From assembly GCF_007097395.1 (NCBI RefSeq), contig NZ_VKDC01000019.1, positions 62,001 to 126,000 on the forward strand: DNA of 64,000 nucleotides, in the 5' to 3' direction. This document shows positions 6,622 to 49,215 of the stretch, piece by piece (the stretch's first letter is position 1; every line of letters starts with the position of its first letter). Both the position numbers and the translations under genes were made by a program. The notes beneath the pieces are model-generated. The model worked only from the letters and a program-made list of their open reading frames with translations, ran no database searches and was not told the origin of the DNA. Origin of the DNA: Fulvivirga sp. M361 (GTDB taxonomy: Bacteria; Bacteroidota; Bacteroidia; Cytophagales; Cyclobacteriaceae).

Positions 6622-8040
6622 ATGAATTTAAAAAATAAAGTTTTAAAAGATATCAAAATAGAAGGAATTGCGTCTGAAGGTAAGTGTATTGCGCGTTATG
6701 AAGGACAAGTAATCTTTATCAATGGTGTAGCACCAGGGGATATAGTAGATCTAAAGGTAGTACGTAAAAAAAAGTCTTTTATGGAAGCCGTTCTCCTGGA
6801 GATCAAAGAGCACTCTTCACTACGAACCACTCCTTTTTGTAATCATTTCGGAACATGCGGTGGCTGTAAATGGCAACACCTTCAATATGACCGGCAACTT
6901 GCTTTTAAACAACAGCAAGTTGTTGACAATTTTGAACGTATCGGAAAAGTAAAGCTACCTCCTATTTCTCCCATCATTAGCGCCAGTCAGACCAAATATT
7001 ACCGAAACAAACTTGAATTCACTTTCAGCCATAAACGATGGCTGAGTAGAGAAGAGATCGAAAGCGGACAAGAAATAGAAAGAAATGGGTTAGGTTTTCA
7101 TATCCCCAGGCGTTTTGATAAAATTCTGGACGTTGAGCACTGCCACTTACAAAGCGACCCGTCAAACGACATACGCCTGGCCGTAAAAAAGTACGCTATT
7201 GATCATAACATTCCTTTCTTTGACATGGTCACCCAAAAAGGTTATTTGAGAAACCTTATCATCCGCAGTACTTCGATCGGTCAATGGATGGTAATGCTGC
7301 AGGTGACGAGTGATAAACCTGTTATAATAGAAGGTATCCTGGAGCATATTAAAGCACAATTTCCTCAGGTGGCTTCGCTGAACTATATTGTCAACTCGAA
7401 AAAGAATGATACTTTCCACGACCTGGAAGTGATCCATTACGCTGGTACTCCATATATAGAAGAGCAAATGACATTATCAGGTGGTGATGAAAAAGTGATC
7501 TTTCGGATAGGGCCAAAGTCTTTCTTTCAAACCAATACAGCACAAGCGGAAGTCTTATATAAGAAGGCATGGGAAATGGCCGGCTTAACAGGAAATGAGT
7601 TGGTATATGACCTTTACACCGGTACAGGAACCATCGCTAACTATGTAGCCAGGCATGCCAGGCATGTGGTAGGTATTGAATACATCGATGAAGCTATACA
7701 AGACGCTAAAACCAATTCCGGCATCAACGGTATCACAAATACAGATTTTTTTGCCGGCAATATGCGGGACATGCTCAATGCCTCGTTTCTGAACGAACAT
7801 GGACATCCGGATGTCATTATTACAGACCCTCCAAGAGCCGGTATGCACCCGGACGTTTGCAACGTAATACTCAAAGCTACACCCACAAAAATCGTTTATA
7901 TCAGCTGCAATCCGGCTACTCAAGCACGGGATGTGGAATTGCTAAATTCCAAATATGAAGTAGTAGAGATACAACCGGTGGATATGTTTCCACATACCCA
8001 TCATGTGGAGTGCGTGGTTTTGTTGGAGTTAAAGAAGTAG
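6622..8040 (+). CDS. rlmD: 23S rRNA (uracil-5-)-methyltransferase RlmD/RumA
   Basis: This 472-aa SAM-dependent enzyme methylates C5 of a uridine in 23S rRNA (U1939 in E. coli numbering). It has an N-terminal TRAM RNA-binding domain (about 1-62) and iron-sulfur cysteines C73, C79 and C82 (CNHFGTCGGCKW). The central RNA-binding region is followed by a Rossmann methyltransferase domain with VYDLYTGTGTIANYVA, the DPPRAGMHPDV loop and catalytic Cys429 in YISCNPATQARD. The C-terminus HTHHVECVVLLELKK is the standard ending of the family. Full length. Its last 13 codons and the DNA just after the stop recur elsewhere in the window as part of a dispersed repeat. Confidence 0.93.
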   Translation: MNLKNKVLKDIKIEGIASEGKCIARYEGQVIFINGVAPGDIVDLKVVRKKKSFMEAVLLEIKEHSSLRTTPFCNHFGTCGGCKWQHLQYDRQLAFKQQQVVDNFERIGKVKLPPISPIISASQTKYYRNKLEFTFSHKRWLSREEIESGQEIERNGLGFHIPRRFDKILDVEHCHLQSDPSNDIRLAVKKYAIDHNIPFFDMVTQKGYLRNLIIRSTSIGQWMVMLQVTSDKPVIIEGILEHIKAQFPQVASLNYIVNSKKNDTFHDLEVIHYAGTPYIEEQMTLSGGDEKVIFRIGPKSFFQTNTAQAEVLYKKAWEMAGLTGNELVYDLYTGTGTIANYVARHARHVVGIEYIDEAIQDAKTNSGINGITNTDFFAGNMRDMLNASFLNEHGHPDVIITDPPRAGMHPDVCNVILKATPTKIVYISCNPATQARDVELLNSKYEVVEIQPVDMFPHTHHVECVVLLELKK

Positions 8041-8235
8041 ATGGGAAATCAAATGAGAAATTTCCTATTCAATTTACGAAATAAATGCATAATTGTGTTT
8101 TTGGTACTTTTTCATTTCCTAGTCATTCCTATCATTTCTCATCCTTTCCCAACATTTTTTACTATTTCTCAACATATTTTTGTTCGAATCTTGTCCGCGG
8201 AAAAGAAAGGACAAACGTATCCTTCGGATATTGGA
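8001..8235 (+). repeat. Dispersed repeat family, copy 1 (contains the genuine rlmD 3' end)
   Basis: This copy begins in the last 13 codons of rlmD, runs over the stop and includes a second conserved block at 8145-8198 (TTTCCCAACATTTTTT, TTTCTCAACAT, TCTTGTCCGC). Against the copy at 14444-14492, the rlmD-end block matches at 42 of 49 positions by hand count. Against 11685-11738, the second block matches at 50 of 54. A 72-codon open frame (8041-8259) follows from the AT-rich sequence and is not taken as a gene. The rest of the gap, 8236-8362, leads to the AbiE operon and shows nothing else. Confidence 0.75.
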
Positions 8236-8362
8236 TTTGACACTTATTCAATTTATTAAAATCGTTTATATTTTCAAACTAAAAGGAACTAACAGTACCT
8301 TTATAATTAATTTTTTAAACTTTCAGCTTGTAGTAGTTTAAAACATATGATAAATTGGTACT

Positions 8363-9145
8363 ATGACTACTGAAAGAGGAAGTAAAATAAACCAACTCTT
8401 ACAATCCCAACCCAAAGGGGTTGTTTTTCTGGCTTCCTGGCTATCTCAAAACGGATATAGCTCTGATCTGCAAAAGAGATACCGAAAAAGCAACTGGCTT
8501 AAATCCATCGGCACAGGCGCTATGGTCAGAACTGGTGATGAGGTCAATTATGAAGGTGCTTTATTCGCATTACAGAAGCAGACCACTTCAAGTATACATC
8601 CTGGTGGAAAAACAGCACTGTCCCTGTTGGGAAAGTCTCATTATCTTCAGTTTTCAACCAAGAGAATAACGCTGTTTGGAGGAAAGGGAGAAAGTCTACC
8701 TATTTGGTTTAGAAACTATGATTGGGGTGTTGAATTCAATCATTATCAATCAGGTTTCCTTCCCAAAGATTTAGGCCTCACTCAAATTGAAAGGAAAAAT
8801 TTTACACTGAAGATATCCAACGCGGCAAGAGCACTTATGGAGTGCTTATATCTTATTCCAAAATATCAAGAATTGCATGAATGCTACGAATTGATGGAAG
8901 GGCTAAATAACCTGAGACCAAAAGAAGTACAAAAGTTATTAGAAGCATGTACCTCTATAAAAGTGAAAAGGCTTTTTCTTTTCCTTGCGGATAAAGCGGG
9001 GCATAGCTGGTTTAATTATATGGATGTAGATAAAATAGATTTGGGTAAGGGAAAACGGAGTATCGTAAAAGGAGGCATTTACATTCCGAAATATCAAATC
9101 ACTGTAAATAAGGAATTGGGTCTGAAGGATGAACGAGATTTATAA
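8363..9145 (+). CDS. Type IV toxin-antitoxin system antitoxin, AbiEi family
   Basis: This 260-aa protein has an N-terminal winged-helix region (about 1-65, SKINQLLQSQPKGVVFLASWLSQNGYSSDLQKRYRKSNWL) and the family block HPGGKTALSLLG at 79-90. A C-terminal AbiEi domain follows. AbiEi proteins repress their own operon and counter the AbiEii toxin without binding it. The gene overlaps the toxin gene by 17 bp, a coupled arrangement typical of abiE operons. It opens a three-gene defence-type island. The lack of DNA-modification or recombinase genes nearby gives no clue to how it arrived. Confidence 0.85.
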   Translation: MTTERGSKINQLLQSQPKGVVFLASWLSQNGYSSDLQKRYRKSNWLKSIGTGAMVRTGDEVNYEGALFALQKQTTSSIHPGGKTALSLLGKSHYLQFSTKRITLFGGKGESLPIWFRNYDWGVEFNHYQSGFLPKDLGLTQIERKNFTLKISNAARALMECLYLIPKYQELHECYELMEGLNNLRPKEVQKLLEACTSIKVKRLFLFLADKAGHSWFNYMDVDKIDLGKGKRSIVKGGIYIPKYQITVNKELGLKDERDL

Positions 9146-10031
9146 AGGGCAGGTATCTTTATTACTATCTGTTATACCAGAGATAGCGAAAGAGAAATGT
9201 TTTGCCTTACATGGGGGAACAGCTATCAATCTGTTTGTACGTGAAATGCCCAGGTTATCTGTGGACATTGATTTGACTTATGTGCCTATTGAAGATCGAC
9301 ATACTTCATTAGATAAAATTGCTCAAGCACTCGAAGGCATACGAGAAAGAATTCTCTCAATTCTTCCCAAGGCAAAAGTTCAACACCAAAGGGAGGTGTC
9401 GAAACTTCAAATTTCTAATCAGGGTTATCAGATTAAAGTTGAGGTAAACCAAACCAATCGAGGTATTCTTTCTGATCCTATAGATTATCTACTATGCGAA
9501 ACCGCACAAGATCAGTTCGATGCATTTTGTTCAATTGCTATCGTACCACTGTCCCAATTGTATGGTGGGAAAATATGTGCCGCTTTAGACCGACAACATC
9601 CGAGAGATATTTTTGATGTGAAATACTTACTGGAAAATGAAGGATTTACAGAAGATATAAAAGAGGGCTTATTGCTATCTATACTTAGTAGCAACAGACC
9701 AATACATGAGCTTCTCCGACCCAATTTACTAGATCAACAAGCAATCCTTGAAAATCAATTTTCGGGTATGACCACCGAGTCTTTTGCTTACAAAGATTTT
9801 GAAGCAACTAGAGAGCAACTTATAGCCAATATATCTAAATTCTGGACCGATTCTGATAGACAATTTCTAATTGGATTTTCAAAATTAGAGCCTGATTGGA
9901 GTATCTATGATTTTGAAAGGTTTCCTTCGGTTCATTGGAAAATTCAAAATTTAGCAAAGCTTAGGCAGGATAATCCTGATAAGCATAGGGAGCAGGTTAA
10001 ATTGTTGAAAGAGGTTTTAGTGAAGGAATAG
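9129..10031 (+). CDS. AbiEii-family nucleotidyltransferase toxin
   Basis: This 300-aa protein has a nucleotidyltransferase fold. The motif HGGTAINLF at 28-36 and the metal-binding pair D46-I-D48 in LSVDIDLTY are intact. The later motif QLYGGKICAALDRQHPRDIFDVKYLL (about 143-168) is the conserved AbiEii K...R.RDi.Dv segment. Known members transfer nucleotides to RNA, some of them to tRNA, and stop growth to limit phage spread. Active-site residues look complete, so the toxin is likely functional. Start codon ATG at 9129 lies inside the antitoxin gene, implying translational coupling. Confidence 0.88.
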   Translation: MNEIYKGQVSLLLSVIPEIAKEKCFALHGGTAINLFVREMPRLSVDIDLTYVPIEDRHTSLDKIAQALEGIRERILSILPKAKVQHQREVSKLQISNQGYQIKVEVNQTNRGILSDPIDYLLCETAQDQFDAFCSIAIVPLSQLYGGKICAALDRQHPRDIFDVKYLLENEGFTEDIKEGLLLSILSSNRPIHELLRPNLLDQQAILENQFSGMTTESFAYKDFEATREQLIANISKFWTDSDRQFLIGFSKLEPDWSIYDFERFPSVHWKIQNLAKLRQDNPDKHREQVKLLKEVLVKE

Positions 10032-10129
10032 ATCCATTTTTCATACCGCCCACTATCACCTTCAACATAGAAAAAAAAGTATGATAATTGCTTACGAATA
10101 ACGGTAAATATCAAATCAAAAACCTGATA

Positions 10130-11401
10130 ATGAATGAGAATAGCTATTTTATTTGTAAGCGATGCGGCATCGAAGGTGTGAAATCGCCACTTTACAAAGA
10201 TGAAATGTGCGATCCATGCAACAGGATATTTTATATGGAAAAAATTAGAGATGAGCTAGACAAGTTTCCCCTAGATATTGGGAATAAACCCTTCTTATAT
10301 GCGCTGAATGTCTCAATCGATGACTATGAAGAGCCAATCACAACAAAAGACTATACCTTAATCAAAATTGATGAACGTATTAGGCAGGTACTTAATAATT
10401 TATTAGAGCTTGTCAGCCTGGATATCAGGCAAGAAGTTATTGATAGTTCTGGGTACCTTTTTGCAACAGATACTTACCTTAATATTGGAAGGGTAGAATG
10501 TCACTTGCACAACAGATTCAGTGGAAAGTCTTGTGAGTTTTCAAGGTCAGCTATTCTGGGGTTCACGACACAGTATAGCGACTGGAAATTTCGGTACAAG
10601 CCTGCGAATAACGTTCTCAGGATAACAACTGAAGGCGTTGAAGAAATATCAAAGCTTCGACTGGATATTAGCAAATCAATCACGCTTGATGAAATTGATG
10701 CTCGATTCATATTGAAGCGGTTGGAAGAATCAAAAGATAGTCATTTGTTTCGGGGCATAAATAGACACTACTTTCATAATGATGGAATAGCTGCATCCAT
10801 ATACAGAAATAACAACGATTTGGTAGAACATGGAAAACTGCAAGAGCATGAAAACGAGATTGTAAAAAATTTACTAAGCAAGGGCCTTTATCTACCTGAA
10901 CAAAGCCGCCCAATTTCTGCACTTACAGATTTAAGGCACTTCGGAAAAGACACTTGCCTGCTTGATTTTTCAGAGGATTTTAAAATTGCCTTATTTTTTT
11001 CTTGTCAGCCAACGATGAATAAATCGGCTACAGTTGCAGAGATACTGGTTCTTGACAAATCTGAATACGAGCAAAAAGAGGATATAGCATACCCCAATGA
11101 AGAAGACTTTTTGATAAGTCCTGCCATCACTGATATTACTAGAAATCGAGTTGAAGCTCAACAGAGCGTGTTTTTATATTGCCATCAAGGTCACCTCCCC
11201 AGAGAAACATGTGGGACAAAGGTTAGTAACTTACTGATAGCACCAAGTTTGAAACCGGCTTTTTATGATTATTGTGAATATTCAGATGAGATGGTTTATC
11301 CTGATTTTCATTCATTTATTGAAAACCCCCAGAACTTCATGACCAAAGCAAAACAGGACTGCCAAGATGAAGGTAAGAAAGAGGATAAGGAATATGTTTA
11401 A
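10130..11401 (+). CDS. Zinc-ribbon plus FRG-domain protein, likely defence-associated
   Basis: Read from the ATG at 10130 (423 aa); an in-frame TTG 14 codons upstream is less likely. The N-terminus has four cysteines, C9-x2-C12 and C27-x2-C30, forming a zinc ribbon. From about residue 203 the FRG domain is clear: HLFRGINRHYF starting at 205, then LRHFGKDTCLLDFSEDFKIALFFSC, and later QQSVFLYC. FRG domains are named for the conserved Phe-Arg-Gly and their biochemistry is poorly known, but they recur in anti-phage loci. The gene lies about 100 bp after the AbiEii toxin on the same strand and is probably part of that operon. It may be an effector; that role is inferred from context. Confidence 0.75.
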   Translation: MNENSYFICKRCGIEGVKSPLYKDEMCDPCNRIFYMEKIRDELDKFPLDIGNKPFLYALNVSIDDYEEPITTKDYTLIKIDERIRQVLNNLLELVSLDIRQEVIDSSGYLFATDTYLNIGRVECHLHNRFSGKSCEFSRSAILGFTTQYSDWKFRYKPANNVLRITTEGVEEISKLRLDISKSITLDEIDARFILKRLEESKDSHLFRGINRHYFHNDGIAASIYRNNNDLVEHGKLQEHENEIVKNLLSKGLYLPEQSRPISALTDLRHFGKDTCLLDFSEDFKIALFFSCQPTMNKSATVAEILVLDKSEYEQKEDIAYPNEEDFLISPAITDITRNRVEAQQSVFLYCHQGHLPRETCGTKVSNLLIAPSLKPAFYDYCEYSDEMVYPDFHSFIENPQNFMTKAKQDCQDEGKKEDKEYV

Positions 11402-11674
11402 AGCTAAAAGGAATATCATAGAAATCACAGCTAAATAATATGACCTATGCCTTAATGAAAATCTTAGTAGAGTACTGATATTGAACGAATCCTACCTGCA
11501 CAATCATCGTAAACATTTATGGTTGCTGTTTATAATGGCTACTATTGGCCATCAAAATGATACTTCTTAGGTAGTTTGATAGTCATAGTCAAGTTCGCAT
11601 CTTTATCCCGTACGGGATGCATTTTGAGATATAGATTATCGGAATTTTCCCATCTTTCTGACCATTTTCAAAAA

Positions 11675-11785
11675 CCATGAAGGATTTCCCAACATTTTTT
11701 GCTATTTCTCAACATACTTTTATCCGAATCTTGTCCGCAGGAAGTAAGGGAAAAACATATTCTTCGGACAAGAAGTCAATAATCG
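11675..11785 (+). repeat. Dispersed repeat family, copy 2 (second block only)
   Basis: Bases 11685-11738 match the block after rlmD (8145-8198) at 50 of 54 positions and continue as a weaker match through TTCTTCGGACAAG. The part resembling the rlmD 3' end is missing. The preceding 11402-11674 stretch holds no gene that I can see. Confidence 0.7.
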
Positions 11786-11863: not shown

Positions 11864-12310
11864 TCACCCTAAATCAAAACCAAGATCAAGATTAGCTTCT
11901 TCCCAAATCACACTTAATACAGTATTGTATTTTGGCGTCACGATGCAATATTCATAGAATGTAAAATCCTGATCTCTATCGCGATCTCTTAGCTCAAACC
12001 AAGTTGATTTATCCACCTCTTGCGCGCTTTCGTTCTTTGGATAGATTTTACCATGATTAAAGAATTCGGTAGCGATCGAATCTTCAGGCGGTGGGAACTT
12101 GGTTCTGTTCTTGAGAAAATACCAAAAGTTGTCGTGTCTTTTCCAGTAACGAACTTTGTTGTTGTAGCTGTAGACCAAACAAATAGAATGGTGACCACAT
12201 TCAACATAGCGGTAAGTGATACTTGACTCAAACTCTTCGGCAAGAAATCTTAAAAGCGTTGGATCAAAATCATAATCATCAGAAATGCTGGTGAAGAGCT
12301 TAGCTGACAT
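11864..12310 (-). CDS. Hypothetical protein, N-terminus probably removed by a MITE
   Basis: From the ATG at 12310 the product is 148 aa. The frame stays open a further 41 bases upstream with protein-like sequence (LLFGETNQFVSELL) right up to the terminal repeat of the MITE at 12352. The original gene was therefore probably longer and was cut by the insertion. The remaining protein is acidic and aromatic-rich (YRYVECGHHSICLVYSYNN; NFWYFLKNRTKFPPPED) with no signal peptide and no family that I recognise. It may still be translated from the internal ATG, but its promoter would have been displaced. Confidence 0.45.
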   Translation of the reverse strand: MSAKLFTSISDDYDFDPTLLRFLAEEFESSITYRYVECGHHSICLVYSYNNKVRYWKRHDNFWYFLKNRTKFPPPEDSIATEFFNHGKIYPKNESAQEVDKSTWFELRDRDRDQDFTFYEYCIVTPKYNTVLSVIWEEANLDLGFDLG

Positions 12311-12351
12311 GAGCAATTCGGACACGAACTGGTTAGTCTCGCCAAATAAAA

Positions 12352-12450
12352 GAGGGTGTCTCAAAAGTATTTTGAACGGTCTCAGATTTTCGTATATGAG
12401 AATTTTCTCAGGCAGGCACCTAAATACGTTTATCCTTTTGAGACACCCTC
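12352..12450. mobile_element. MITE-like element with perfect 16-bp terminal inverted repeats
   Basis: Ends GAGGGTGTCTCAAAAG and CTTTTGAGACACCCTC are perfect inverted repeats around 67 bp of non-coding DNA. The ends match those of the element at 446-522, showing a family. The insertion sits at the 5' end of the truncated gene 11864-12310. No obvious target-site duplication is visible, and no transposase gene with these ends occurs in the window. Confidence 0.7.
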
Positions 12451-12527
12451 AGTCTTTATAAAATGAGTTTTTTTAACTTATCAACCAAATACTACGCTAA
12501 ACATTCATTCTCAAGCATTACTCATTA

Positions 12528-13862
12528 TTATTTTTTTAATTCGTCTTGCGCTTCAGGAGGGTAGAGTTCAGGATATTCAAGCTCCGTTACTGTTCCTTTG
12601 ATTTTAGAACGATAAGATGCTAAACTGTTTTCAGCTGTAAACTCATGGTAATCTCGTATAGCAGACACCAACGATTCTCCTATGAGGCGCATATTATCCT
12701 GGGTAATTCGATCAGGTGCGTACCCTGCCCTGTCATAAGTGACTTCCATAGTCATCGCCATGACAGAATCTTTAAAATTAGCCCACCACCACGCTTCAGG
12801 ATAGCCTCCATTGACAAAACCTGAACCACCCTCGTCAGGAGTAGGTTCCAGCATATCTTTCCCATAATACTTTGCCATTTGATCTATAAAAAACAACTGC
12901 TTATGCCAAAGATTAGATTCAACCTCAGAATATCCCTGTGCCCTGGTTCCAAAGTGAGGAAAAAAGAAGGGGCGAGTATCGGGCTCACTGTTGGATCCAT
13001 GTAAATTAAGTGCCATCGATACCTTAGGACCTCCGTCCGTCATCAGATTCCTGGCATATTCATGTATAACATTTACTTCCAGAGGTAAGCCATCAATCAG
13101 GTTTAAAGGATCAAGGGGGTCATATTTCCACTGCACTTCAAGGTTTTCAGACTTGGGAGTTGTACGATAATTGCCAGCGATCACGCCATCCACATTGTGC
13201 ATCGGATAAATATAAAATTCATGCTTGCTCAATATCAATGCTGACTCTGGTGAGTTGTTCAGAAGTCTTTTAACCAAACCTTCTACCACGTACGAACCCG
13301 GAGTCTCAGCGGGATGTGTGCGGGCATGAATAAAGACTTTTTTCTTGTTTTCCGGTGGGGAATGTGGGTGGGTTAATTTTATCAAATAAATAGGTTTTTG
13401 GCGCTGCGAATAACCGGAGACTTCAACCTCGGTAAAAAATACATACCTTTCTATATCGGAAATAAACCGCTCTAAATCAGAAAAGGTATATGGATAAAAC
13501 CTGGCTATCCATACCTGTGATTGACTAAAGGTTGTAGTGACTACTATTTCTTTATTGGTATTTTGGTATACCTCGCTTTCATTGAATCTAAACCAACGTA
13601 CATTATCATACGAGTACACTGGAACGTAGTAAAATGGCCACCCCCTGTTTTTTATGGTAAAAGTAACGGGTTCGTTCGTGGGGGCGTTATCAACTTTCAA
13701 ATACCACCAACTACGATATTCATCTGGTAAGCTAACATCCCCATTATCATCAGCTAGATAAAAGTCCCATTTATTATTTGCTATTTTCACAACATCCCCT
13801 ATGCTGCCAGATTCAAAATCATCAGAAAAAATAACTTCTCCGATATGATTAAATTTTCTCAT
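12528..13862 (-). CDS. M14-family zinc carboxypeptidase with cytosolic-carboxypeptidase-like N-domain
   Basis: This 444-aa protein has an N-terminal beta-sandwich domain (about 1-125, with WWYLKVDNA and FYYVPVYSYDNVRWFRF) as in cytosolic carboxypeptidase (CCP/AGBL-like) enzymes, then the M14 peptidase domain. Zinc ligands are H183 and E186 in ARTHPAETPGS; further on are the substrate-binding GNYRTTP, the third-ligand region ALNLHGSNSE and the catalytic glutamate in AMTMEVTYDR. It should remove C-terminal residues from peptides or proteins. No signal peptide is seen, so it is probably cytoplasmic. Monocistronic; full length. Confidence 0.85.
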   Translation of the reverse strand: MRKFNHIGEVIFSDDFESGSIGDVVKIANNKWDFYLADDNGDVSLPDEYRSWWYLKVDNAPTNEPVTFTIKNRGWPFYYVPVYSYDNVRWFRFNESEVYQNTNKEIVVTTTFSQSQVWIARFYPYTFSDLERFISDIERYVFFTEVEVSGYSQRQKPIYLIKLTHPHSPPENKKKVFIHARTHPAETPGSYVVEGLVKRLLNNSPESALILSKHEFYIYPMHNVDGVIAGNYRTTPKSENLEVQWKYDPLDPLNLIDGLPLEVNVIHEYARNLMTDGGPKVSMALNLHGSNSEPDTRPFFFPHFGTRAQGYSEVESNLWHKQLFFIDQMAKYYGKDMLEPTPDEGGSGFVNGGYPEAWWWANFKDSVMAMTMEVTYDRAGYAPDRITQDNMRLIGESLVSAIRDYHEFTAENSLASYRSKIKGTVTELEYPELYPPEAQDELKK

Positions 13863-14289: not shown

Positions 14290-14677
14290 AGTTGGGAAGG
14301 ATTTCCCAACATTTTCTCAACTTATCTGAGAAAAAGATGAGAAATGAACATGCTTTTGTCCGTTTTTTGTCTGAAGAAAACTAATCTTCATAAAAAACGG
14401 CCTATACGAACAATAAAAGGCACATTTAAACCTCACAGACATCTCATGTGGAATGCGTGATTTTGTTGGAGTTGAGAAAGTAGATAAGAAATTTTACAAA
14501 CCAGGAAATCTCCCTTTAAATAATTTTCATAGATGTTTTTTTCTCATCTCTTCCAAACCTTTCCAATTCATTACAATCTATTTAGGTCAATTTCCTGGTT
14601 AGGTTTTGAGTTTAATTAACGCTGTTTCGTGAGACTAATTATTGAGACGAGTTTATGAGATGCGGCAGCTATGTAGT
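14290..14677 (+). repeat. Dispersed repeat family, copy 3 (most complete)
   Basis: Four parts follow in order. Part A is 14300-14392 (TTTCCCAACATTTTCTCAAC, GATGAGAAATGAACATG, TTTTGTCCG). The rlmD-end block is 14444-14492 (TCATGTGGAATGCGTG...TAG, 42 of 49 identical to rlmD). A weak block B lies near 14530. Part C is 14585-14677, ending TTATTGAGACGAGTTTATGA. The rlmD-like block still encodes SHVECVILLELRK and a stop, although it has no start codon or upstream gene. Confidence 0.75.
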
Positions 14678-15823: not shown

Positions 15824-15955
15824 TTATTTTGCTTTATAATCTATCAAAATTGAGATCCCAAAGTTGAATCATAATTGAAGGGATTAAAATGACGTGTGGT
15901 AAGAAAAGAGCTTGACCTCTATCAAGGAGTAAAATTGATTTAAGTCAATTTTTGT

Positions 15956-17381: not shown

Positions 17382-17389
17382 TTTATATC

Positions 17390-18308: not shown

Positions 18309-18323
18309 AATATTTAAAATTTT

Positions 18324-40300: not shown

Positions 40301-40399
40301 TTATCTAGTCCATACCATTGACGGGGGTTTCCAAATTTGGTTTGAACTTGATCAACTTTTATTAGCGAGACGATTTTATGAGACAGAAGGTAGCAAGTT
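40265..40399 (+). repeat. Dispersed repeat family, C-module copy 8
   Basis: GGTAGTTTTTCTTTC, then TTCTTAAT...CCTTATC, GGTTTCCAAATTTGGTTTG and GCGAGACGATTTTATGAGAC follow the same order as 49115-49215 in copy 7 and the end of copy 3 (14585-14677). It abuts the start region of the hybrid kinase gene. Confidence 0.5.
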
Positions 40400-40424
40400 G
40401 AGTTTTTTAACTTTAACCAGTAAC

Positions 40425-43031
40425 ATGATAAAGCTGAACATCCTCAATGCGGGCATAACGCCGATAATGGTTTTTGATCAGTCGCGTCGAATTCGATTGG
40501 TGAATGTTTCTGCGCTTTTAGCCTCTGGAACTACCCTCCCGTATTTACTCTTCTTTGCTTTCAATGGCCTTTTTCTGGCTCCGGTAGCTTTAGGCTTTTT
40601 ATTGTGCTTTAGTAGTACATGGCTGTTGAATAGCTATAGGTTTTATAAGCTTTCCCGAAACCTACTCTACATTTTTTCCTGCATGTACCTGTTTACGGTG
40701 GCATCATCATTGGGTCGAGAAGCCTCCCATCACTTGATGTTGATTCCGGTACTGCTAAGCGTGGTGGTTGTATTCGAATTTGATGAGAAACTTACCCTTT
40801 ATTCAATCATAAGTCTAATTCTGTCCGCCTTTTTAATACTAGAGCTAACAGATTTTTCACTTTTTTCAATTGAACTATCCACCCAGGTTCAACGCTATTG
40901 CTATTACGGAAGTCTTTCGACAGCCGTTTTAGGAACAGCCATCATAGGCATCTACTATTTTTATTTGTACGGTAAGCAACTTCGCCAAAATGAATTGATG
41001 GTAGCTGAAGCCAAAGAAATTGAGAGAACCATTAATTATTTTTCTACATCTCTTTTTGGAAAAAACACAGTTGATGAAATTTTATGGGATGTTGCCAAAA
41101 ACTGTATTGGCAGACTCGGACTTGTAGATTGTGTGATCTATCTGGTAGACGATGAAAGAAAAACGCTCGTACAAAAAGCAGCTTATGGCACTAAAAACCC
41201 ACAAGCCTTCGAAATCTATAAACCAATAGATATACCCCTTGGAAAAGGAATTGTTGGAACTGTAGCTAAGACAAAAGAGCCTTTGATAATAGCTGATACC
41301 TCTAAAGATAAAAGATACATTCCGGATGATGCTCACCGATTATCTGAATTGGCTGTGCCCCTCATCTACGACAAAAAAGTTATAGGTGTCATCGATTCAG
41401 AACATCCTGATAAACATTTTTTCACAGAACATCACCTGAATATTTTGAAAACCATTGCCTCGCTATGCGCCAATAAAGTGATCCGGGCTATGGCAGAAAA
41501 AGAACATGAACAAGCACTTAAGATTCAGCTAGAGGCAGAAAAAATCAAATCATTTGATGAACTCAAATCCAAGCTTTTCGCTAATGTTTCACATGAATTG
41601 AGAACACCCCTCACACTTATTGTAGGAACTATTGACAGACATACTAAGCAGGGGGAGTCTGATGACTGGAGTGTATTGAAAAAACATACTGACCGATTGT
41701 TACGATTAATTAACCAATTATTGGACCTTTCTAAATTAGAATCAGGACAGTTTAAATTAAACCCCACGCCTGGAGATATTTACCAATTTCTAAAAACAGT
41801 TGTTGCTCTTTTTTCCTCTTATGCAGCGAATCGCAATGTCAAGATTATTGAAGAAATCCCTGAAGGATCAATGTGGCTAAATTTTGACCACGATGCACTT
41901 GAGAAAATATTCTTCAATCTGGTTTCAAATGCTGTTAAATTTACCAATGAAAATACGATCGTAAAACTTAAAGTAGTTGATGCCATACCACTCAAAGTAC
42001 TGGTTATTGACCATGGAAAAGGTATTTCCCGTCAGGAATGCGATAAAATTTTTGATCGCTATTACCAGATAGATCAAAAATCCTCTCAAGGTACAGGGAT
42101 CGGCTTAGCACTTACCAAAGAGTTAGTAAATCTTCAGCAAGGCCGGCTTACTGTTGAGAGCACACCTGATGTTAGTACTACGTTTACGGTTATTTTACCC
42201 TTAGACAAAACAGAAAAACGATCCCCAGCTATAAATAAAGAACAACCTGATAAAAAAAATACGTTTGAAGAGACTGGTCGTTTTGTGCTCTTGGTAGAAG
42301 ACAACATAGCAGTGGCTAAATTGATAAGATCTACATTGGAGCAAAAATTTAATATCATACATGCCAACAACGGGCAAGAGGCTATGAACATTGCCAAAAA
42401 CCGCATACCTGATCTTATTATAAGTGATATTATGATGCCTGCTATGAATGGATTAAAATTTTGTCAATGGATCCGGGAAAATGAATTGACAAGTCACATA
42501 CCATTTATTTTTTTAACAGCAAGAGCTGATGCTGATACAAAACTAAAGGGGCTTCAAATTGGAGCTGATGATTTTTTGACTAAACCATTTAGTGGTCAGG
42601 AATTAGAAATTCGTGTGACTAATTTAATAGTAGGTAGAAATAAACTTGCCGAAAAATACAGAAAGATTATTTCGTTAGAGCCGGGTAACATTGTAGTAAC
42701 CAGTATAGAAGAGGTTTTTCTGAAAAAATTACTAAAAGTAGTAAGTAAAAACATTGACAACAATGATTTTAACGTAACCGATTTAAGTCGATCCATCGGT
42801 GTAAGTAGAATGCAGCTACATCGCAAAATCACTGCTCTAACAGGACATTCAGCGACTTCATTTATCAGGAATCAACGGTTACTTCACGCCTCAAAATTAT
42901 TGGAAGCCGGGGAGTCAGTATCTCAAGTGGCCTACGCAGTTGGATTTGAGAGCCTGTCATATTTTTCAACGGTCTTTAAGGAAAAATTTGGGGTATTACC
43001 TTCAGAGTTTATCAAAGCCAGAGCAAAATAG
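40425..43031 (+). CDS. Hybrid histidine kinase with GAF, receiver and AraC-type output domains
   Basis: I choose ATG 40425 (868 aa) over the TTG at 40398, which lies in the repeat. Five or six membrane helices (about 20-190) are followed by a GAF domain (about 205-370; GKGIVGTVAKTKEPLIIAD, AVPLIYDKKVIGVID), a HisKA domain with phospho-acceptor His390 (NVSHELRTP) and an ATPase domain (HGKGISRQECDKIFDRYYQ; GTGIGLALTKELV). A receiver domain with Asp668 (ISDIMMP) precedes a C-terminal AraC helix-turn-helix pair (VTDLSRSIGVSRMQLHRKI; VSQVAYAVGFESLSYFSTVFKE). It senses, relays and regulates in one chain. It probably controls the adjacent T9SS cargo operon. Confidence 0.88.
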   Translation: MIKLNILNAGITPIMVFDQSRRIRLVNVSALLASGTTLPYLLFFAFNGLFLAPVALGFLLCFSSTWLLNSYRFYKLSRNLLYIFSCMYLFTVASSLGREASHHLMLIPVLLSVVVVFEFDEKLTLYSIISLILSAFLILELTDFSLFSIELSTQVQRYCYYGSLSTAVLGTAIIGIYYFYLYGKQLRQNELMVAEAKEIERTINYFSTSLFGKNTVDEILWDVAKNCIGRLGLVDCVIYLVDDERKTLVQKAAYGTKNPQAFEIYKPIDIPLGKGIVGTVAKTKEPLIIADTSKDKRYIPDDAHRLSELAVPLIYDKKVIGVIDSEHPDKHFFTEHHLNILKTIASLCANKVIRAMAEKEHEQALKIQLEAEKIKSFDELKSKLFANVSHELRTPLTLIVGTIDRHTKQGESDDWSVLKKHTDRLLRLINQLLDLSKLESGQFKLNPTPGDIYQFLKTVVALFSSYAANRNVKIIEEIPEGSMWLNFDHDALEKIFFNLVSNAVKFTNENTIVKLKVVDAIPLKVLVIDHGKGISRQECDKIFDRYYQIDQKSSQGTGIGLALTKELVNLQQGRLTVESTPDVSTTFTVILPLDKTEKRSPAINKEQPDKKNTFEETGRFVLLVEDNIAVAKLIRSTLEQKFNIIHANNGQEAMNIAKNRIPDLIISDIMMPAMNGLKFCQWIRENELTSHIPFIFLTARADADTKLKGLQIGADDFLTKPFSGQELEIRVTNLIVGRNKLAEKYRKIISLEPGNIVVTSIEEVFLKKLLKVVSKNIDNNDFNVTDLSRSIGVSRMQLHRKITALTGHSATSFIRNQRLLHASKLLEAGESVSQVAYAVGFESLSYFSTVFKEKFGVLPSEFIKARAK

Positions 43032-43100
43032 CCCCTGTTACATTAGAGCAAATCATTGATACATTGTAGCAAACGGTCTCAGGAGGGTTAGATCAACTTT

Positions 43101-46100
43101 GTGAATCACACAAAGCAAATTAAATTGAAGATAAAAGCTTTTTTAGCACTATCTCTGACCGGCTTATTGCAATTCACCTATTCGCAAACACCGGTTAGTG
43201 GCTCCATCACTTCCAATACCACATGGGGCTTAGTAAATAGTCCTTACCAGGTAACAGGAGATGTGACCGTTATCACGGGAGTTATATTAACCATAGAAGC
43301 TGGCGTACAGATAAGTTTACCTATTTACACCAATGATATCATTATAAACGGCACATTAATCGCAGTCGGTAACGCTTCGCAGCCGATCATTCTAACTGGT
43401 CCCGGGGGCATTGATATTTCGGAGACCAGTAATAATTCCATACTAGAATTTATAGAATACACAGGAGCGGGATTTGTAGGTTCAGGCTTTTTGGATGATA
43501 CCTTTACAGCGGGGATTTCATTGGGCTCTACTGGCAGTTCGTCCATTAGTAATGCCGTTATGAACGACTGTGATGCTTGTCTGTACGTTTATAATGATTC
43601 GGAGCCAGTGATTCATCAATCCACTCTGTCTAATGCAATTGTAGGCATTCGCTCTCAACAGGGAAATCCTACCATTACTAACTCTGCTCTAGACCAAAAT
43701 ACAGTTTATGGAGTGTGGCTGATAAATGGATCGGGTGTTGTTCAAAACAATACTTTTTCCAACAATGGTTCTTCCGGTAAGAATTCGGCTCTCTACATCC
43801 AAAACCCAATGTTGGGATTAATTATTGAAAATAATGTTTTTACCTCTAATCATCAGGACTTACTCATAGATGCTGAAATGGCAGATGACGAACTCTATGA
43901 CACTAACGGTCTAACAGTTATTCAGATCGATTTAGGTACTATTACTGGCAACACTACCTGGCAGAAGCCCCAGGCTCCTGAGACTTGGACTTATGCCATG
44001 TCAGCAGGTGCTGTGGCAGTTAATGCTTCCGTCACCTTAACGATTGAGCCGGGAGTTGTCATTCAGCCCACAAATGATATTCAGGTTCAGGGTACAATAA
44101 TCGCTCAAGGTACACCTTCAGAGCCTATTCAATTTTTTGGGTCAGGAGCTTTTAATTTTTTAACCAATAGTATAGGTTCTGTATTTGAATTTGTAGAGTA
44201 CTACGGTACTAAAAGTGACGGTGGAGGAGTATTTCGTCCACGAAGTGCTGCCAGTCCGATTACCATTAGGAATTCCCTTATAGACAATTGCCGATTTGGG
44301 GTATTGATCGATGGACAAAACTCAATCATAGAGCAAAACACGATTAGCAATTGCGATGAGGCCATACGATCCTCCTCAGCCAGTCCGATCATTACCAATA
44401 ATTCAATAACAGATAATGAGTTTGGCATTCAATTCACACAAGGAAGCCCTACCATCTCTAATAATACCTTTACTAATAATGGCAGTAGTTTTAATGGATC
44501 GGCAGCAATAAAGTTTAATAATGGTATTTCAAACCCCATAATTGAAAACAATTCATTCAGTAACAATACGAAGGATATCATTACCCACCCTGAAGTAATG
44601 GATGATGAGTTTTTTGATACGAACGGATTCTCAAAAATTATCATAGATAATGAAGCTGTTGAAAATGATGTAACATGGCATGCGCCTGTGTTACCTGAGG
44701 TTTGGGAATTTGAAATGCTAGGAAGTGTTACTGTAAACGCAGGTATAACACTCACGTTGGAGCCGGGTTTAATTATCAATTCGACTGCTTATACCTACGA
44801 TATTGACGTTCAGGGGACATTATTGGCTGCAGGGACGTCATCATCTCCAATCCAAATAGTTGGAGCCGGTGGCATAGACCTTTCAGAAACCAGCGTAAAC
44901 TCAGTTATCGATCATTTGGAATGGCAAGGTATAGGTAATACAGGTATTGGGGCCGGAGATCGTACTTTTGGTGCAGGAATTTCCATCGGAGGCACTACTT
45001 CTACCATTTCTAATATAGAAATGAACGACTGTAGAAGTTGCATTTACATCTATAATGATGCTACTCCAATTCTAAATGATCTCACGCTTCGTAACGCCTT
45101 TTTAGATGGGATGTATGTCGATAGTGGTTCACCAACTATTGCTAACTCCTGCATAACCAATCATGGAGATAATGGAATTGAAAATGTTGGAGGAGGGAGT
45201 GTTAATGCTATTAACAACTGGTGGGGTGATGCTTCAGGACCTTTCAATGCCAGTGCTAACAGTGGTGGTACGGGCAGTTCTGTCACTGACGGAGTTGTAT
45301 TTGCCCCCTGGCTAACAACTGATATCTGCAATCCGGCAATAGCAGTTACCATACAACCACAGGATACAGACCAATGCGAGGGAACTAATGTCAGCTTTTC
45401 TGTGCTGGCATCCGGAGTAAATAATCTGCAATACCAATGGCAGGAAGATGAGGGAACAGGTTTCACTAATCTGACTGATGGAGGATCAATTTCAGGGACA
45501 CGCACCCCTAATCTGGATATATCTTCTATTACACCGTCAATGGATGGGTTGCTATACAGATGTGTAGTGTCAGGGGATAATACCACAGATGAAATCTCTT
45601 CTTCAGCAGTCCTTAGCGTAACGGCCCTTGCGAGAATTACTACTAATCCAATAGATCAAACTCAAAATGTTGGTGAATCAGTCAGTTTTAGTATAACTAC
45701 AAGTGGTGATAACTTAACGTACCAATGGCAAAAGGACGGCACGGATATCTCTAACGAAACAAATCCTAGTCTTATATTGAATAGTATTACCATTAGTGAT
45801 CAGGGCAATTATACCTGTGTTATCACCAGCAGCTGCAATACAATTGCCAGTTCATCTGCTCAATTAATAGTCAATGATCCTAATATAAGCTTCTCCATCA
45901 TAGATTCAGAGCAGAATCAACCCATAGCAAATAATCAACAAACCTCCATAAGTTTTGGACAAACAGTCTCAGAGCAAAGTATTTCACGTCGTTTTTTAAT
46001 AGAAAATACTGGCACCCAAACGCTAAATATAAGTACTATAACTTCTTCTGACCAGGCTTTTGAAATCAGTGATGTCCCAGAACAAGTACCTGTAGCGGGT

Positions 46101-46508
46101 AGCCAGTCATTTGAAATAACTTTCTCAGCAAAGATACCTGGAGTTTACCTCTCAACTATAAGTACTCTGACGGAATCAGGCTCTTTTCTTTACCCGGTTA
46201 CTGCTGAAGTAACGGTACTACCGCCTGGCGAAGATCTTATTGTATATAATGCTTTAGCCCCTAACGGCAATGGCAAGAACGACTTCCTGAAAATCGAAAA
46301 TATTGAATCTTATATAAACAACTCCGTGCAGATATACAACCGCTGGGGTAGCAAGGTCTACGAAGTCTCGGGATACAACAACCAGAGTAAGAGGTTTGAA
46401 GGGCAAAGTAACACGAATGGAAATCATGCCTTAATAGAAGGTACTTATTTCTACATAATACAGACAGAAACTGATAAGCTCACAGGGTTTTTATATTTAA
46501 GAAGATGA
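43101..46508 (+). CDS. Beta-helix/Ig-like surface protein with type B T9SS C-terminal domain
   Basis: This 1135-aa protein starts at GTG 43101; no ATG is available. After a signal peptide (KAFLALSLTGLLQFTYSQ), residues about 35-720 are three related modules of roughly 220 aa, each with a GxxLTIEPG-type strand and right-handed beta-helix repeats (IxNNxFxxN pattern). Two Ig-like domains follow (CEGTNVSFSV...YQWQED; VGESVSFSI...YQWQKDG), then a choice-of-anchor-D-like sandwich and the gliding-motility-associated C-terminal domain (NALAPNGNGKNDFLKIENI; IYNRWGSKVYEV; GTYFYIIQT). It would be secreted by the T9SS and surface-attached. Its stop overlaps the porP/sprF-like gene by 4 bp. Confidence 0.87.
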   Translation: MNHTKQIKLKIKAFLALSLTGLLQFTYSQTPVSGSITSNTTWGLVNSPYQVTGDVTVITGVILTIEAGVQISLPIYTNDIIINGTLIAVGNASQPIILTGPGGIDISETSNNSILEFIEYTGAGFVGSGFLDDTFTAGISLGSTGSSSISNAVMNDCDACLYVYNDSEPVIHQSTLSNAIVGIRSQQGNPTITNSALDQNTVYGVWLINGSGVVQNNTFSNNGSSGKNSALYIQNPMLGLIIENNVFTSNHQDLLIDAEMADDELYDTNGLTVIQIDLGTITGNTTWQKPQAPETWTYAMSAGAVAVNASVTLTIEPGVVIQPTNDIQVQGTIIAQGTPSEPIQFFGSGAFNFLTNSIGSVFEFVEYYGTKSDGGGVFRPRSAASPITIRNSLIDNCRFGVLIDGQNSIIEQNTISNCDEAIRSSSASPIITNNSITDNEFGIQFTQGSPTISNNTFTNNGSSFNGSAAIKFNNGISNPIIENNSFSNNTKDIITHPEVMDDEFFDTNGFSKIIIDNEAVENDVTWHAPVLPEVWEFEMLGSVTVNAGITLTLEPGLIINSTAYTYDIDVQGTLLAAGTSSSPIQIVGAGGIDLSETSVNSVIDHLEWQGIGNTGIGAGDRTFGAGISIGGTTSTISNIEMNDCRSCIYIYNDATPILNDLTLRNAFLDGMYVDSGSPTIANSCITNHGDNGIENVGGGSVNAINNWWGDASGPFNASANSGGTGSSVTDGVVFAPWLTTDICNPAIAVTIQPQDTDQCEGTNVSFSVLASGVNNLQYQWQEDEGTGFTNLTDGGSISGTRTPNLDISSITPSMDGLLYRCVVSGDNTTDEISSSAVLSVTALARITTNPIDQTQNVGESVSFSITTSGDNLTYQWQKDGTDISNETNPSLILNSITISDQGNYTCVITSSCNTIASSSAQLIVNDPNISFSIIDSEQNQPIANNQQTSISFGQTVSEQSISRRFLIENTGTQTLNISTITSSDQAFEISDVPEQVPVAGSQSFEITFSAKIPGVYLSTISTLTESGSFLYPVTAEVTVLPPGEDLIVYNALAPNGNGKNDFLKIENIESYINNSVQIYNRWGSKVYEVSGYNNQSKRFEGQSNTNGNHALIEGTYFYIIQTETDKLTGFLYLRR

Positions 46509-47422
46509 TTATGAAAAAAGTAATCTTAGTGATTGTCTTAACTTCTTATGCCTGGTTTACAAACGCTCAACAGGACCCGTTATTAAGTCAATATCAATTT
46601 AACCAGTTACCCATTAACCCTGCCTATACCGGAGTGAATGATATGACAAGCTTTGATCTACATTATCGCTCTCAATGGGGAGGAGTAGCAGGAGCTCCAA
46701 CCACTATTACATTTTCAGGTAACAGTTCTCTTTTTGAGAATAAAGTTGGGCTTGGACTATCACTTGTTCATGATGAGACAGGCGTTACTAAAAACACAAA
46801 CTTTAACCTTGCTTACGCCTATGAACTGGACCTGTCGAATGATATGACACTATCTTTTGGGTTACAAACAGGTATTCTGTCATTGCGATATAATTTTGGG
46901 GAACTCACATTGGACGACCCAACAGATGAGGATTTCACAAATGCAGATGACGGCCTCACAAAATTGAATTTTGGAACCGGACTCTTTATTAGTAATGAAA
47001 AATACTACTTGGGGGTTTCGGTCCCAAGATTACTCAAAGCCACGGAAGGTATTGGTGAAAACATAGGAGAACGATACAATCGACACTATTATTTCACCGG
47101 AGGACTGATTATAGACAAGTCACAGAGTGTTAAATTGAAGCCTTTTGCTGTACTTCGCCTGGCCGAAGATTCCCCACTTTCCACGGATATAGGCATCAGT
47201 GTCTTGCTTGCTGATGTCATTTGGGCTGGAGTATTTACAAGAAATTTTAATGTTTATGGGATTTCAGCTTTTCTCAACCTTAATAATGGTTTTCGGCTTG
47301 GATATACTGGTGAACTGACTTCTAACGACTCACCTGCTTCTACCTTCAGCACTCATGAAGTTTCTGTAGGTATTGATCTCGAGTTGTTCGCTAACCAGGC
47401 TGTAGCAAGAAGATATTATTAG
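46505..47422 (+). CDS. PorP/SprF-family outer-membrane protein of the type IX secretion system
   Basis: This 305-aa protein has a signal peptide (KKVILVIVLTSYAWFTNAQ) and the family opening QDPLLSQYQFNQLPINPAYTG, then SQWGGVAGAPTTITFSG and repeated beta strands of a 14-stranded barrel. PorP/SprF proteins pair with individual type B cargo proteins and are needed to export or anchor them. The coupling (ATGA overlap) to the cargo gene fits that role exactly. ATG at 46511 is an alternative start two codons in. Confidence 0.9.
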   Translation: MIMKKVILVIVLTSYAWFTNAQQDPLLSQYQFNQLPINPAYTGVNDMTSFDLHYRSQWGGVAGAPTTITFSGNSSLFENKVGLGLSLVHDETGVTKNTNFNLAYAYELDLSNDMTLSFGLQTGILSLRYNFGELTLDDPTDEDFTNADDGLTKLNFGTGLFISNEKYYLGVSVPRLLKATEGIGENIGERYNRHYYFTGGLIIDKSQSVKLKPFAVLRLAEDSPLSTDIGISVLLADVIWAGVFTRNFNVYGISAFLNLNNGFRLGYTGELTSNDSPASTFSTHEVSVGIDLELFANQAVARRYY

Positions 47423-47432
47423 AAAAGTAGCA

Positions 47433-48137
47433 ATGAACAAGTATAAAAGCCTTCATTTATGGATGATTATCCCTTTTGTATTGATGCAGAGTGGATTCAT
47501 AGACAGCTACTGGATAACCTGGTCAGATGAAGATTGGTCTACCCATATTCATGTCTTTAGCGCCATGTTTTGGTATATACTCCTTATCGTACAGCCGTTC
47601 TTAGCCACGCACGGAAATATTCAGACTCATCGTACCTGGGGTATCATCGGTTTTTTTGTAGCTGGTGCTACAGTTTCCAGTGCCGTTTCCTTTCTATGGC
47701 AAGATGTTAGTTTTGGTGATGCCGGAGGTTTTGGCGAACCATTCACCGAAGGTTTTTTCTATGGGATAGTACTGGTGGAGTTAATCATGATGACGGGTTT
47801 TGCAGTAGCTGTCATTATGTCAATCGTGCATAGAAAAAGAACCGATGAGCATGTTTTATGGCTTATATCCACCATTTTTTATATCATGATGCCTGGACTG
47901 GGAAGAGGACTGGAATTTCTAATATTTACTTTCTACGGCCCTTATGCCTGGCTGGCCCTGTCCATCTGCTCGGTACTTATTATTATAACCTTGCTCATGA
48001 TTGGGTGGCGGTTGAAAAAAATCATGCACCCTGCCATTCTACTAGGAATTGTGGTCAATATACCTACGTTTTTTGTCTATTGGATTGGTCAGCAGGCTTG
48101 GTATGTAGATTGGCTTCAGCAATTTATGAAGTACTAG
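47433..48137 (+). CDS. Multi-helix membrane protein, DUF2306-like
   Basis: This 234-aa protein has about seven membrane helices. The segment HIHVFSAMFWYILLIVQPFLA...HRTWGIIG has the paired histidines and the H-R-x-x-G turn of DUF2306-like membrane proteins, which may bind haem, though this is not established. It follows the porP/sprF-like gene by 10 bp and so belongs to the same transcript, followed by a shorter relative. Function unknown. Confidence 0.65.
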   Translation: MNKYKSLHLWMIIPFVLMQSGFIDSYWITWSDEDWSTHIHVFSAMFWYILLIVQPFLATHGNIQTHRTWGIIGFFVAGATVSSAVSFLWQDVSFGDAGGFGEPFTEGFFYGIVLVELIMMTGFAVAVIMSIVHRKRTDEHVLWLISTIFYIMMPGLGRGLEFLIFTFYGPYAWLALSICSVLIIITLLMIGWRLKKIMHPAILLGIVVNIPTFFVYWIGQQAWYVDWLQQFMKY

Positions 48138-48139
48138 CA

Positions 48140-48769
48140 ATGAATAAGTATTTAAAGATAGCGCTATGGTCGATTATACTGGCTCTCAGCTGTTGGTTCT
48201 ACTTTGAAAGCACAAAACCTTACTTTACAAATGACTTACAACCTCGTAAAATAGCCATCAAACCCTGGTTGGTCGCCCATTTTATCGGAGCATTTTGCAC
48301 ACTATTTTTAGGGCCGCTGCAGTTCTGGCCAAGACTTCGAAAAACATACCTCTCTCTTCACAGAACTTTAGGCAAAATCTATATTATAGGATCTCTTTTA
48401 GGAGCTTCCACTGTGTTTTACCTACTTTTCAACGGATACACTTTATCCGGTGGAATTCCTTCCTTGTTTATACTGGCAATCTTATGGATATTCATGACTA
48501 TAGCCGCATGGATATCCATTCGAAATCGGGATATTGTCAACCATAAAAATTTTATGATCCGAAGTTATGTCTTCGGGCTTGCCTTCCTCTTTATTCGAGT
48601 TTTTAATAGGCTTGATGAATATGGCTATAATCTTTTCCCTTATATAGAAGATGGGCTAATGCGATACACCTTGTATGAATGGATGTGCTGGGTTTATCCT
48701 CTGGTAATCACAGAAATGATTTTGGTCTGGTGGCCTGCACTTAAAGAAAGAGCTAAAACGACCTTATGA
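48140..48769 (+). CDS. DUF2306-family membrane protein
   Basis: Read from the ATG at 48140 (209 aa), two bases after the previous stop; a longer in-frame frame back to 47858 overlaps the upstream gene and is rejected. Six or so membrane helices carry the family pattern FIGAFCTLFLGPLQFWPRLRKTYLSLHRTLGKIYIIG, then NHKNFMIRSY. It is related to the upstream protein, suggesting a heteromeric pair. Function unknown. It ends the operon started by the T9SS cargo gene. Confidence 0.72.
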   Translation: MNKYLKIALWSIILALSCWFYFESTKPYFTNDLQPRKIAIKPWLVAHFIGAFCTLFLGPLQFWPRLRKTYLSLHRTLGKIYIIGSLLGASTVFYLLFNGYTLSGGIPSLFILAILWIFMTIAAWISIRNRDIVNHKNFMIRSYVFGLAFLFIRVFNRLDEYGYNLFPYIEDGLMRYTLYEWMCWVYPLVITEMILVWWPALKERAKTTL

Positions 48770-48869
48770 AAGCATTTCACTTCCCAGCCCTGATGATTCT
48801 AATTTCTAATAGTAGCACCAATGACCTCCTCCTGACTTCAGCACTCCTTTTACTATGTTTATTATTTAG

Positions 48870-49215
48870 CATAGTACCTTTTTCTCATCTTTCCCTCTAT
48901 TTTTTCCAACATTATTGAGAAAATGATGAGAAATAAACATGTTTTTGCTCGTTATTGTCTGAGGAAACTTATTATCATCAAAAAATCATCCATCTATCAG
49001 AAAACACTTTCTACGTCAAACAAACATATCATGTGGAATATGCGAATTTGCTGAAGTTAAGAAAGTAGATGGAAAATATCTGAGAGAAACTCAAAACTCT
49101 TAAAAAAGCAGTTTTGGTTAGTTTTTCTTTCCAGTTTCTTAATGGTCTTTCCTACCCCACCCATATTAATGAGGCAGATTTCCAAGTTGATTTTTAGATT
49201 TAATTAAATGTCTTT
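48870..49215 (+). repeat. Dispersed repeat family, copy 7
   Basis: Part A (48880-48960: TTTTTCTCATCTTTCCC, GAGAAAATGATGAGAAATAA, TTATTGTCTGAGGAAA) is followed by the rlmD-end block from 49029 (TCATGTGGAATATGCG...AAGAAAGTAGATGG) and the C-module (49115-49210: GGTTAGTTTTTCTTTCC, GATTTCCAAGTTGATTTTTA). No gene lies in the gap 48770-49410. Confidence 0.7.

Follow-up and report, generated by a model that had tools for sequence, protein, structure and literature searches.

Why does the end of a ribosomal RNA methyltransferase gene recur, again and again, in the intergenic DNA behind that gene? The question is raised by a 64,000-nucleotide stretch of Fulvivirga sp. M361 (contig NZ_VKDC01000019.1, positions 62,001 to 126,000; here, the window), in which rlmD is followed by intergenic copies of its own 3′ end. 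We consider it likely that tyrosine-integrase elements in this bacterial family use the 3′ end of rlmD as their attachment site on the chromosome, and that the window holds a tandem array of at least five integrase-less cassettes resembling cis-mobilizable elements (CIMEs); a full rlmD-linked element probably excises these cassettes and takes them along in tandem.

The original prediction, made from the sequence alone, listed at least five intergenic copies of the rlmD end, the best matching at 42 of 49 positions and all set among further shared modules. A repeat search and an alignment of the copies found the five whose positions it gave. The repeat search places the block at 7991-8049 (rlmD), 14434-14492, 19674-19732, 21306-21364, and 49019-49077, the four copies being 69 to 81% identical to rlmD over 59 nucleotides; blastn aligns the best copy (14444-14492) with 8001-8049 at 85.7% over 49 nucleotides, that is, 42/49. 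Alignment resolves a composite junction consisting of a right end (RE, ∼150 bp; the predicted "part A"), an attachment block (the final rlmD codons with their stop, plus a few bases), and in some cases a left end (LE, ∼190 bp), which accounts for "parts B and C" and comes in two subtypes, the second (LE-B) matching more weakly. At 36310 the RE is clear (36170-36306) and the block degenerate. With a 206-bp RE-plus-block query, 11 matches at E ≤ 1 were obtained in the whole genome (G000; 8.13 Mb, 148 contigs). Six of them, the query itself among them, reach E 3.5e-8 or better and all fall within the window; the other five are weak. Of the six matches that a profile model found at E ≤ 1e-3, five belong to the window, and the sixth is on contig C138 (E 2e-15). 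The rlmD-like block copies are far more frequent than chance would allow.

RE and LE have TTTTGTCCG direct repeats in common, every spacing being 11 bp. With one mismatch allowed, at least two sites occur in 16 of 26 RE and 11 of 15 LE copies and at least one in 23 RE and 15 LE copies (found by profile and related, so not independent), whereas plain base shuffles average 0.8 (RE) and 0.5 (LE) sites in total. The arm-type sites of lambda-like tyrosine integrases resemble such spaced direct repeats, and the TTTTGTCCG repeats appear to be arranged as integrase arm sites are. RE also keeps two inverted repeats; compensatory-looking differences noted in them by eye were rejected, as covariation did not exceed that of shuffles. 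The cassette ends are diverged, with identities mostly of 65 to 82%. The home gene and junctions of the window are as follows.

6622-8040, plus strand: rlmD (23S rRNA uracil-5 methyltransferase), the home gene, ending HVECVVLLELKK (Pfam PF05958, TRAM; tail).
7992-8049, plus strand: attachment block at rlmD, attL (repeat search, alignment).
8044-8238, plus strand: LE with TTTTGTCCG-type repeats (nhmmer E 1.7e-45; copy in training set).
11648-11774, plus strand: LE remnant without block (repeat search, LE profile; in training set).
14290-14440, plus strand: RE 1 (blastn, alignment, profile model).
14435-14492, plus strand: attachment block 1 (repeat search, alignment).
14476-14640, plus strand: LE-B, end approximate, resembling the stretch after block 5 (weak LE profile match, E 2.6e-4; alignment).
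19571-19680, plus strand: RE 2, 5′ part missing (alignment).
19676-19732, plus strand: attachment block 2 (repeat search, alignment).
19727-19919, plus strand: LE of the Fic cassette (alignment, LE profile; in training set).
21176-21312, plus strand: RE 3 (blastn, alignment, profile model).
21307-21362, plus strand: attachment block 3 (repeat search, alignment).
36170-36306, plus strand: RE 4 (alignment, profile model).
36307-36350, plus strand: attachment block 4, degenerate (alignment).
48891-49025, plus strand: RE 5 (blastn, alignment, profile model).
49021-49077, plus strand: attachment block 5 (repeat search, alignment).
49078-49240, plus strand: LE-B after block 5, end approximate (alignment).

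Attachment sites thus stand on both sides of the cassettes, formed by the block at rlmD and the five RE junctions (block 4 degenerate). The LE at 11648-11774, which has no preceding block, is probably a damaged junction between two elements.

The same ends recur across the family, and their position points to rlmD. A sequence model of RE plus block (R1; 17 training copies, from genomes G000, G030, and G300) matches 35 of 390 family genomes, in 17 of 84 genera, at E ≤ 1e-3, a threshold near which matches may be chance. Among 390 genomes of the order it matches five at E ≤ 1e-5, one of which (G800) belongs to another family and shows the same RE-block layout. Position was counted over the listed matches with E values of 3.6e-11 or lower, 63 in 27 genomes (the window's five copies included; 23 of 86 rows are weaker and left out). 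Thirty-nine share a contig with rlmD, and 38 of these lie downstream on the same strand, 1.2 to 61.4 kb away, the remaining one being inverted; without the three training genomes, the count is 28 of 29. This position, the arm repeats common to both ends, and a related element that bears an integrase and occupies the same site support the earlier proposal of a non-autonomous element with rlmD as its home site.

RE copies away from rlmD were seen on G030:C30, G308:C3, G013:C122 (with a HipA-type cassette), and G000:C138, and may reflect relocation by rearrangement, secondary sites, or assembly breaks. Pieces of another rlmD, a broken one that may mark an earlier home site, adjoin RE copies at G077:C16:20727-21202 (L246), on a contig without an intact rlmD. 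Half an attachment block occurs at 9993-10030 of L078 (G000:C109), near a group of AraC, DUF1611-like, alanine racemase-like, and dipeptidase-like genes (names by eye); relatives of this group come after rlmD in L100 and after the last RE in G187 and G228. L100, a metagenome-assembled genome of Roseivirga sp. OFTM338 with the same sequence as G300, has three copies.

If elements bring their own gene end, the old end is expected beyond the element. In genus g89, G187 and G228 both carry HVENIVLLERRG plus a stop after the RE (the displaced tail of G228 was read by eye); rlmD of G187 now ends HVECICLLELRK, and that of G243, of the same genus, ends HVENIVLLERK plus a stop; no LE follows that rlmD, and the only RE, 13 kb off, is partial. 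In G218, rlmD and attR have 42 identical bases in common. Within the window's genus, tails with the residues HVEC occur in three of four genomes with RE (the window included) and in none of 11 without. At third codon positions, tail identity amounts to 62% for 10 HVEC genomes with RE and to 44% for 12 HVEN genomes that have no LE (G243 and G204 among them do have RE), the corresponding figures in upstream stretches being 30 to 52% and 29 to 43%; choosing the sets by tail type favors the 62% figure. Tails also appear on foreign genes: RlmD2 of G268 is 34% identical to the window's RlmD and has a cassette-type tail, whose 36 bases show 89% DNA identity to the RlmD1 tails of G000, G030, G095, G023, and G094 and 50 to 69% to the tails of the 12 HVEN genomes. 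Displaced and foreign tails together bear out the expectation that such elements carry a replacement copy of the gene end.

RlmD proteins only ∼33 to 34% identical to the window's were noted at L069 (G003:C122) and in G107, G268, G271, G308, and G146, and cassettes use the end of the divergent RlmD too. That of G003 adjoins the same upstream neighbor as the window's rlmD, as though the gene had been exchanged in its entirety. Among named proteins, the nearest RlmD found, from an uncultured Fulvivirga sp., is 65% identical to the window's.

A recombinase gene near the block, which the original prediction had suggested looking for, exists in relatives as a tyrosine integrase behind rlmD. A Phage_integrase survey (matches in at least 24 genomes) showed one just behind rlmD, among the matches listed, in G228, G175, G280, and G077. 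At E ≤ 1e-60, an integrase of this type (P0003) occurs in 5 of the 390 family genomes, namely, these four and G271, where the gene is in pieces on two contigs with one internal stop reported; among the 390 it was found only beside rlmD. In all five the match starts 137 to 150 bp after rlmD (the probable ATG lies ∼70 bp beyond the match start) and adjoins the same LE. Profiles built from cassettes only recognize four helper LEs (E 1.5e-24, 4.8e-12, 8.7e-18, and 9.9e-16) and the RE of G228, G175, and G077 (E 4.1e-13 to 1.3e-30). The four complete integrases are 76 to 91% identical to the first and, as read from sequence, show R, HxxR, W, and Y, the residues expected of the tyrosine integrase family.

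A coupling protein of TraG type (TraG-D_C) and a TrwC/MobF relaxase follow in G175, G228, G077, and the G271 piece; the G280 contig stops after the integrase. The RE lies ∼24 kb away in G175 and ∼45 kb away in G228. Helper loci also hold RadC and Toprim/SSB or ArdC genes, and in G175 an EcoRII-type restriction set adjoins the RE. No mating-pore family appears among the 25 of 46 Pfam and 25 of 108 NCBIfam families listed for G228 or the 20 proteins scanned for G175. Phage records related to the integrase number 17 (23 to 26% identity among the 8 listed) and plasmid records 5 (23 to 27%); there was no PDB chain at E ≤ 1e-3, no confirmed relative in viral contigs, and none in 395 genomes of the class at E ≤ 1e-40, a search that says little without a positive genome.

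These observations suggest a mechanism in which an incoming circle (RE, block, LE) would recombine close to the start of the conserved HVE codons, so that rlmD would end in an element-supplied tail and the old tail would shift to the element's far side. Repeated insertion would stack elements behind rlmD, and cassettes would be excised by, and moved in tandem with, a full element carrying the rlmD-linked integrase, MobF relaxase, and coupling protein. With respect to origin, the cassette ends appear homologous to the helper's, and no gene remnants were found in the cassette loci searched.

The window's cassettes carry the following cargo, assigned by Pfam.

8363-11401, plus strand: cassette 1a, AbiEi, AbiEii, FRG-domain protein.
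11864-13862, minus strand: cassette 1b, open reading frame (ORF) without family, M14 carboxypeptidase.
14744-19383, no single strand assigned: cassette 2, dehydrogenase, cyclic nucleotide (cNMP)-binding regulator, NAD-binding, lumazine-binding-like, TetR, alcohol dehydrogenase (ADH) fragment.
20009-21115, plus strand: cassette 3, Fic protein (DUF4172-Fic), a single gene between two junctions.
21365-35991, no single strand assigned: cassette 4, AraC, TonB receptor, ABC transporter, ParD-like antitoxin, haloperoxidase-like protein, DUF4198.
36864-48769, plus strand: cassette 5, flavin oxidoreductases, hybrid histidine kinase, beta-helix type IX secretion system (T9SS) protein, PorP/SprF, DUF2306.

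Neither an integrase, relaxase, or coupling protein nor a serine recombinase family was found by Pfam in 30 ORFs between 8 and 49 kb (shorter and overlapping ORFs were outside the scan), and none of 11 helper proteins matched the window by tblastn. In 10 of 10 genus-mates without RE, a gene of 868 to 869 amino acids that resembles clpB starts about 1 to 5 kb behind rlmD; neither the window nor the 20 kb after it contains a match to this gene, and the far end of the array therefore cannot be placed. Other features of the window are a direct duplication with 481-bp spacing in the lumazine-binding-like genes (17376-18235); a ∼100-bp inverted repeat like a miniature inverted-repeat transposable element, GAGGGTGTCTCAAAAG...CTTTTGAGACACCCTC (12344-12450), with a similar half at 438-466; and three minus-strand ORFs of 236 to 238 amino acids (55769-58256), the first a LuxR-type regulator and two sharing a 71% identical stretch.

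Similar cargo recurs in different genera. AbiE-like cassettes occur in G000, G010, G003, G030, G125, G187, and G095 (Pfam was run on that of G000 only); across five genomes, AbiE protein pairs are 75 to 88% identical and RlmD pairs 31 to 70%. The AbiE cassettes of G187 and G003 show 84% DNA identity over 2.6 kb, their RlmD proteins being 31.6% identical, and the Fic cassettes of G125 and G030, from two genera, show 91% over 1.1 kb. The Fic of G095 cassette 4 has 85.6% protein identity to that of the window's cassette 3 (RlmD, 57%), and another G095 unit, 0.75 kb long, pairs a ParE toxin with a small ORF that has no Pfam match. Many other cassettes in relatives hold ordinary metabolic or regulatory genes, and toxin-antitoxin cargo is therefore frequent but not the rule.

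Several points weigh against a mobile array served by a helper at rlmD. Excision of a cassette, its circle, recombination by the helper integrase, and transfer in tandem are inferred rather than observed. Several window junctions have no LE, and 24 of the 63 RE copies lie on contigs without an intact rlmD; several of these assemblies are fragmented, and G030 C30, G077 C16, and G308 C3 may be real other sites. Tails and ends do not always correspond: in the sequence searched, no RE appeared for two rlmD genes with HVEC tails (L082 and L029, the latter G049), an HVEN tail is combined with an LE in G072, and the RE-bearing G152, G204, G243, G300, and G323 are HVEN without LE. Helper genomes have HVEN, HIES, or HVES tails and cassette genomes mostly HVEC, which means that the exact partners may differ from the helpers found. 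The window's own genome has no helper integrase at E ≤ 1e-60, and the array may thus be stranded until a helper arrives. The 11 helper proteins found no gene fragments by tblastn in the cassette loci searched, an absence that argues against recent decay from a full element. An AlphaFold model of the integrase (mean predicted local distance difference test score, 43) was too poor and was not used.

The rival that survives best, though we think it rather unlikely, is that successive full elements entered at rlmD and lost their mobility genes by deletion, leaving scars that are no longer mobile as units. It shares the attachment-site part of our reading, differs on present mobility, and overlaps with it in odds. 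Damaged junctions (11648, RE 2, and degenerate block 4), the rarity of the helper integrase (5/390), and the divergence of the ends fit such decay; similar AbiE and Fic cassettes in different genera, with the same end types at different array positions, do not, nor does a unit as short as that of ParE in G095 or the lack, among the loci searched, of any helper integrase, relaxase, or coupling protein match outside helper loci.

Two further explanations are each improbable. In one, cassettes would spread after DNA uptake through homologous recombination between conserved rlmD tails and ends, with no integrase involved. The ends are similar and long enough for this, and most array genomes have no helper; yet in the compared tails the boundary falls close to the same few codons, the 11-bp spaced repeats have no evident use to RecA, and the RE-block order is kept across genera and in G800. 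Equally doubtful is an integron-like system in which another recombinase elsewhere in the genome acts in trans on the ends. G000 has 15 Phage_integrase matches, nine listed ones lying on contigs other than C60, and the RE does contain inverted repeats, but these form no covarying fold, and the LE is shared with an integrase that in the 390 family genomes was found nowhere but beside rlmD. The predicted alternative of a spread 3′-untranslated-region-derived small or structured RNA, suggested by a block spanning the gene end plus downstream bases and by the conserved RE inverted repeats (85% of cells paired, 45 to 66% when slid), can practically be dismissed, given no consensus fold (RNAalifold, 17 RE-plus-block copies, no pairs), covariation that 207 of 500 shuffles reach, no Rfam match near the copies, and junctions that flank cargo genes.

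Cassettes stacked at a housekeeping gene have precedents. Staphylococcal cassette chromosome (SCC) elements at rlmH likewise use an rRNA methyltransferase 3′ end as home and form composite tandem cassettes; their recombinases are Ccr serine recombinases, whereas the helper integrase here is a tyrosine recombinase with arm-type repeats and not of the Ccr type. CIMEs, in the parts of PMC7563491 that describe them, are elements that retain attachment sites, have lost recombination and transfer genes, and move by accretion; streptococcal arrays of CIMEs with integrative and conjugative or integrative mobilizable elements (ICEs, IMEs) lie at rpmG, rpsI, fda, and rplL, and classical CIMEs span 1.2 to 13 kb. 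Like them, the rlmD cassettes have attachment sites without integrase or transfer genes, are stacked at a housekeeping gene 3′ end, and are of comparable size (about 0.75 to 15 kb); unlike them, as there described (PMC7563491), they occur in another phylum at another target gene, form arrays without any full element (five cassettes in the window), and include units that are single toxin-antitoxin or anti-phage modules. Judged by sequence, the rlmD cassettes thus appear to have the CIME anatomy, with attachment sites on both sides and no integrase, relaxase, or coupling protein found.

The precedent invoked in the original prediction, elements at streptococcal rumA/rlmD, holds for the kind of target gene (a 23S rRNA uracil-5 methyltransferase) and an altered host protein C terminus; by the accounts given in parts of PMC4701971 and PMC5704250, those elements use serine integrases (PMC4701971) and a site within rumA (PMC5704250), whereas here we find a tyrosine integrase and the 3′ end. 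According to a section of the IME review (PMC5704250), a MobF relaxase had at that time been found in none of the known canonical IMEs; the helper here encodes one, together with a coupling protein. Integrons and clusters of attC sites lacking integron integrases (CALINs), in the portion of PMC11389934 that treats them, likewise form cassette arrays without their own integrase; at the rlmD site no covarying fold was found, and the cassettes are longer and often multigene. Among the matches listed in the open-access literature, we found no paper on an rlmD 3′-end site in Bacteroidota.

More tentatively, the arrays could represent a satellite cassette system, in which small units that lack an integrase, in some cases amounting to a single toxin-antitoxin or anti-phage module, are selected hitchhikers of an rlmD-specific mobilizable element, forming lasting arrays behind rlmD in many genera and repeatedly rewriting the C terminus of an rRNA methyltransferase, even of very divergent RlmD. 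Genomes with cassette ends (35/390 at E ≤ 1e-3) far exceed helper genomes (5/390 at E ≤ 1e-60), so that most of this cargo would depend on a rare helper. The rlmD site, with its end profiles and candidate integrase, provides a recognizable address at which anti-phage and metabolic cargo may be found.

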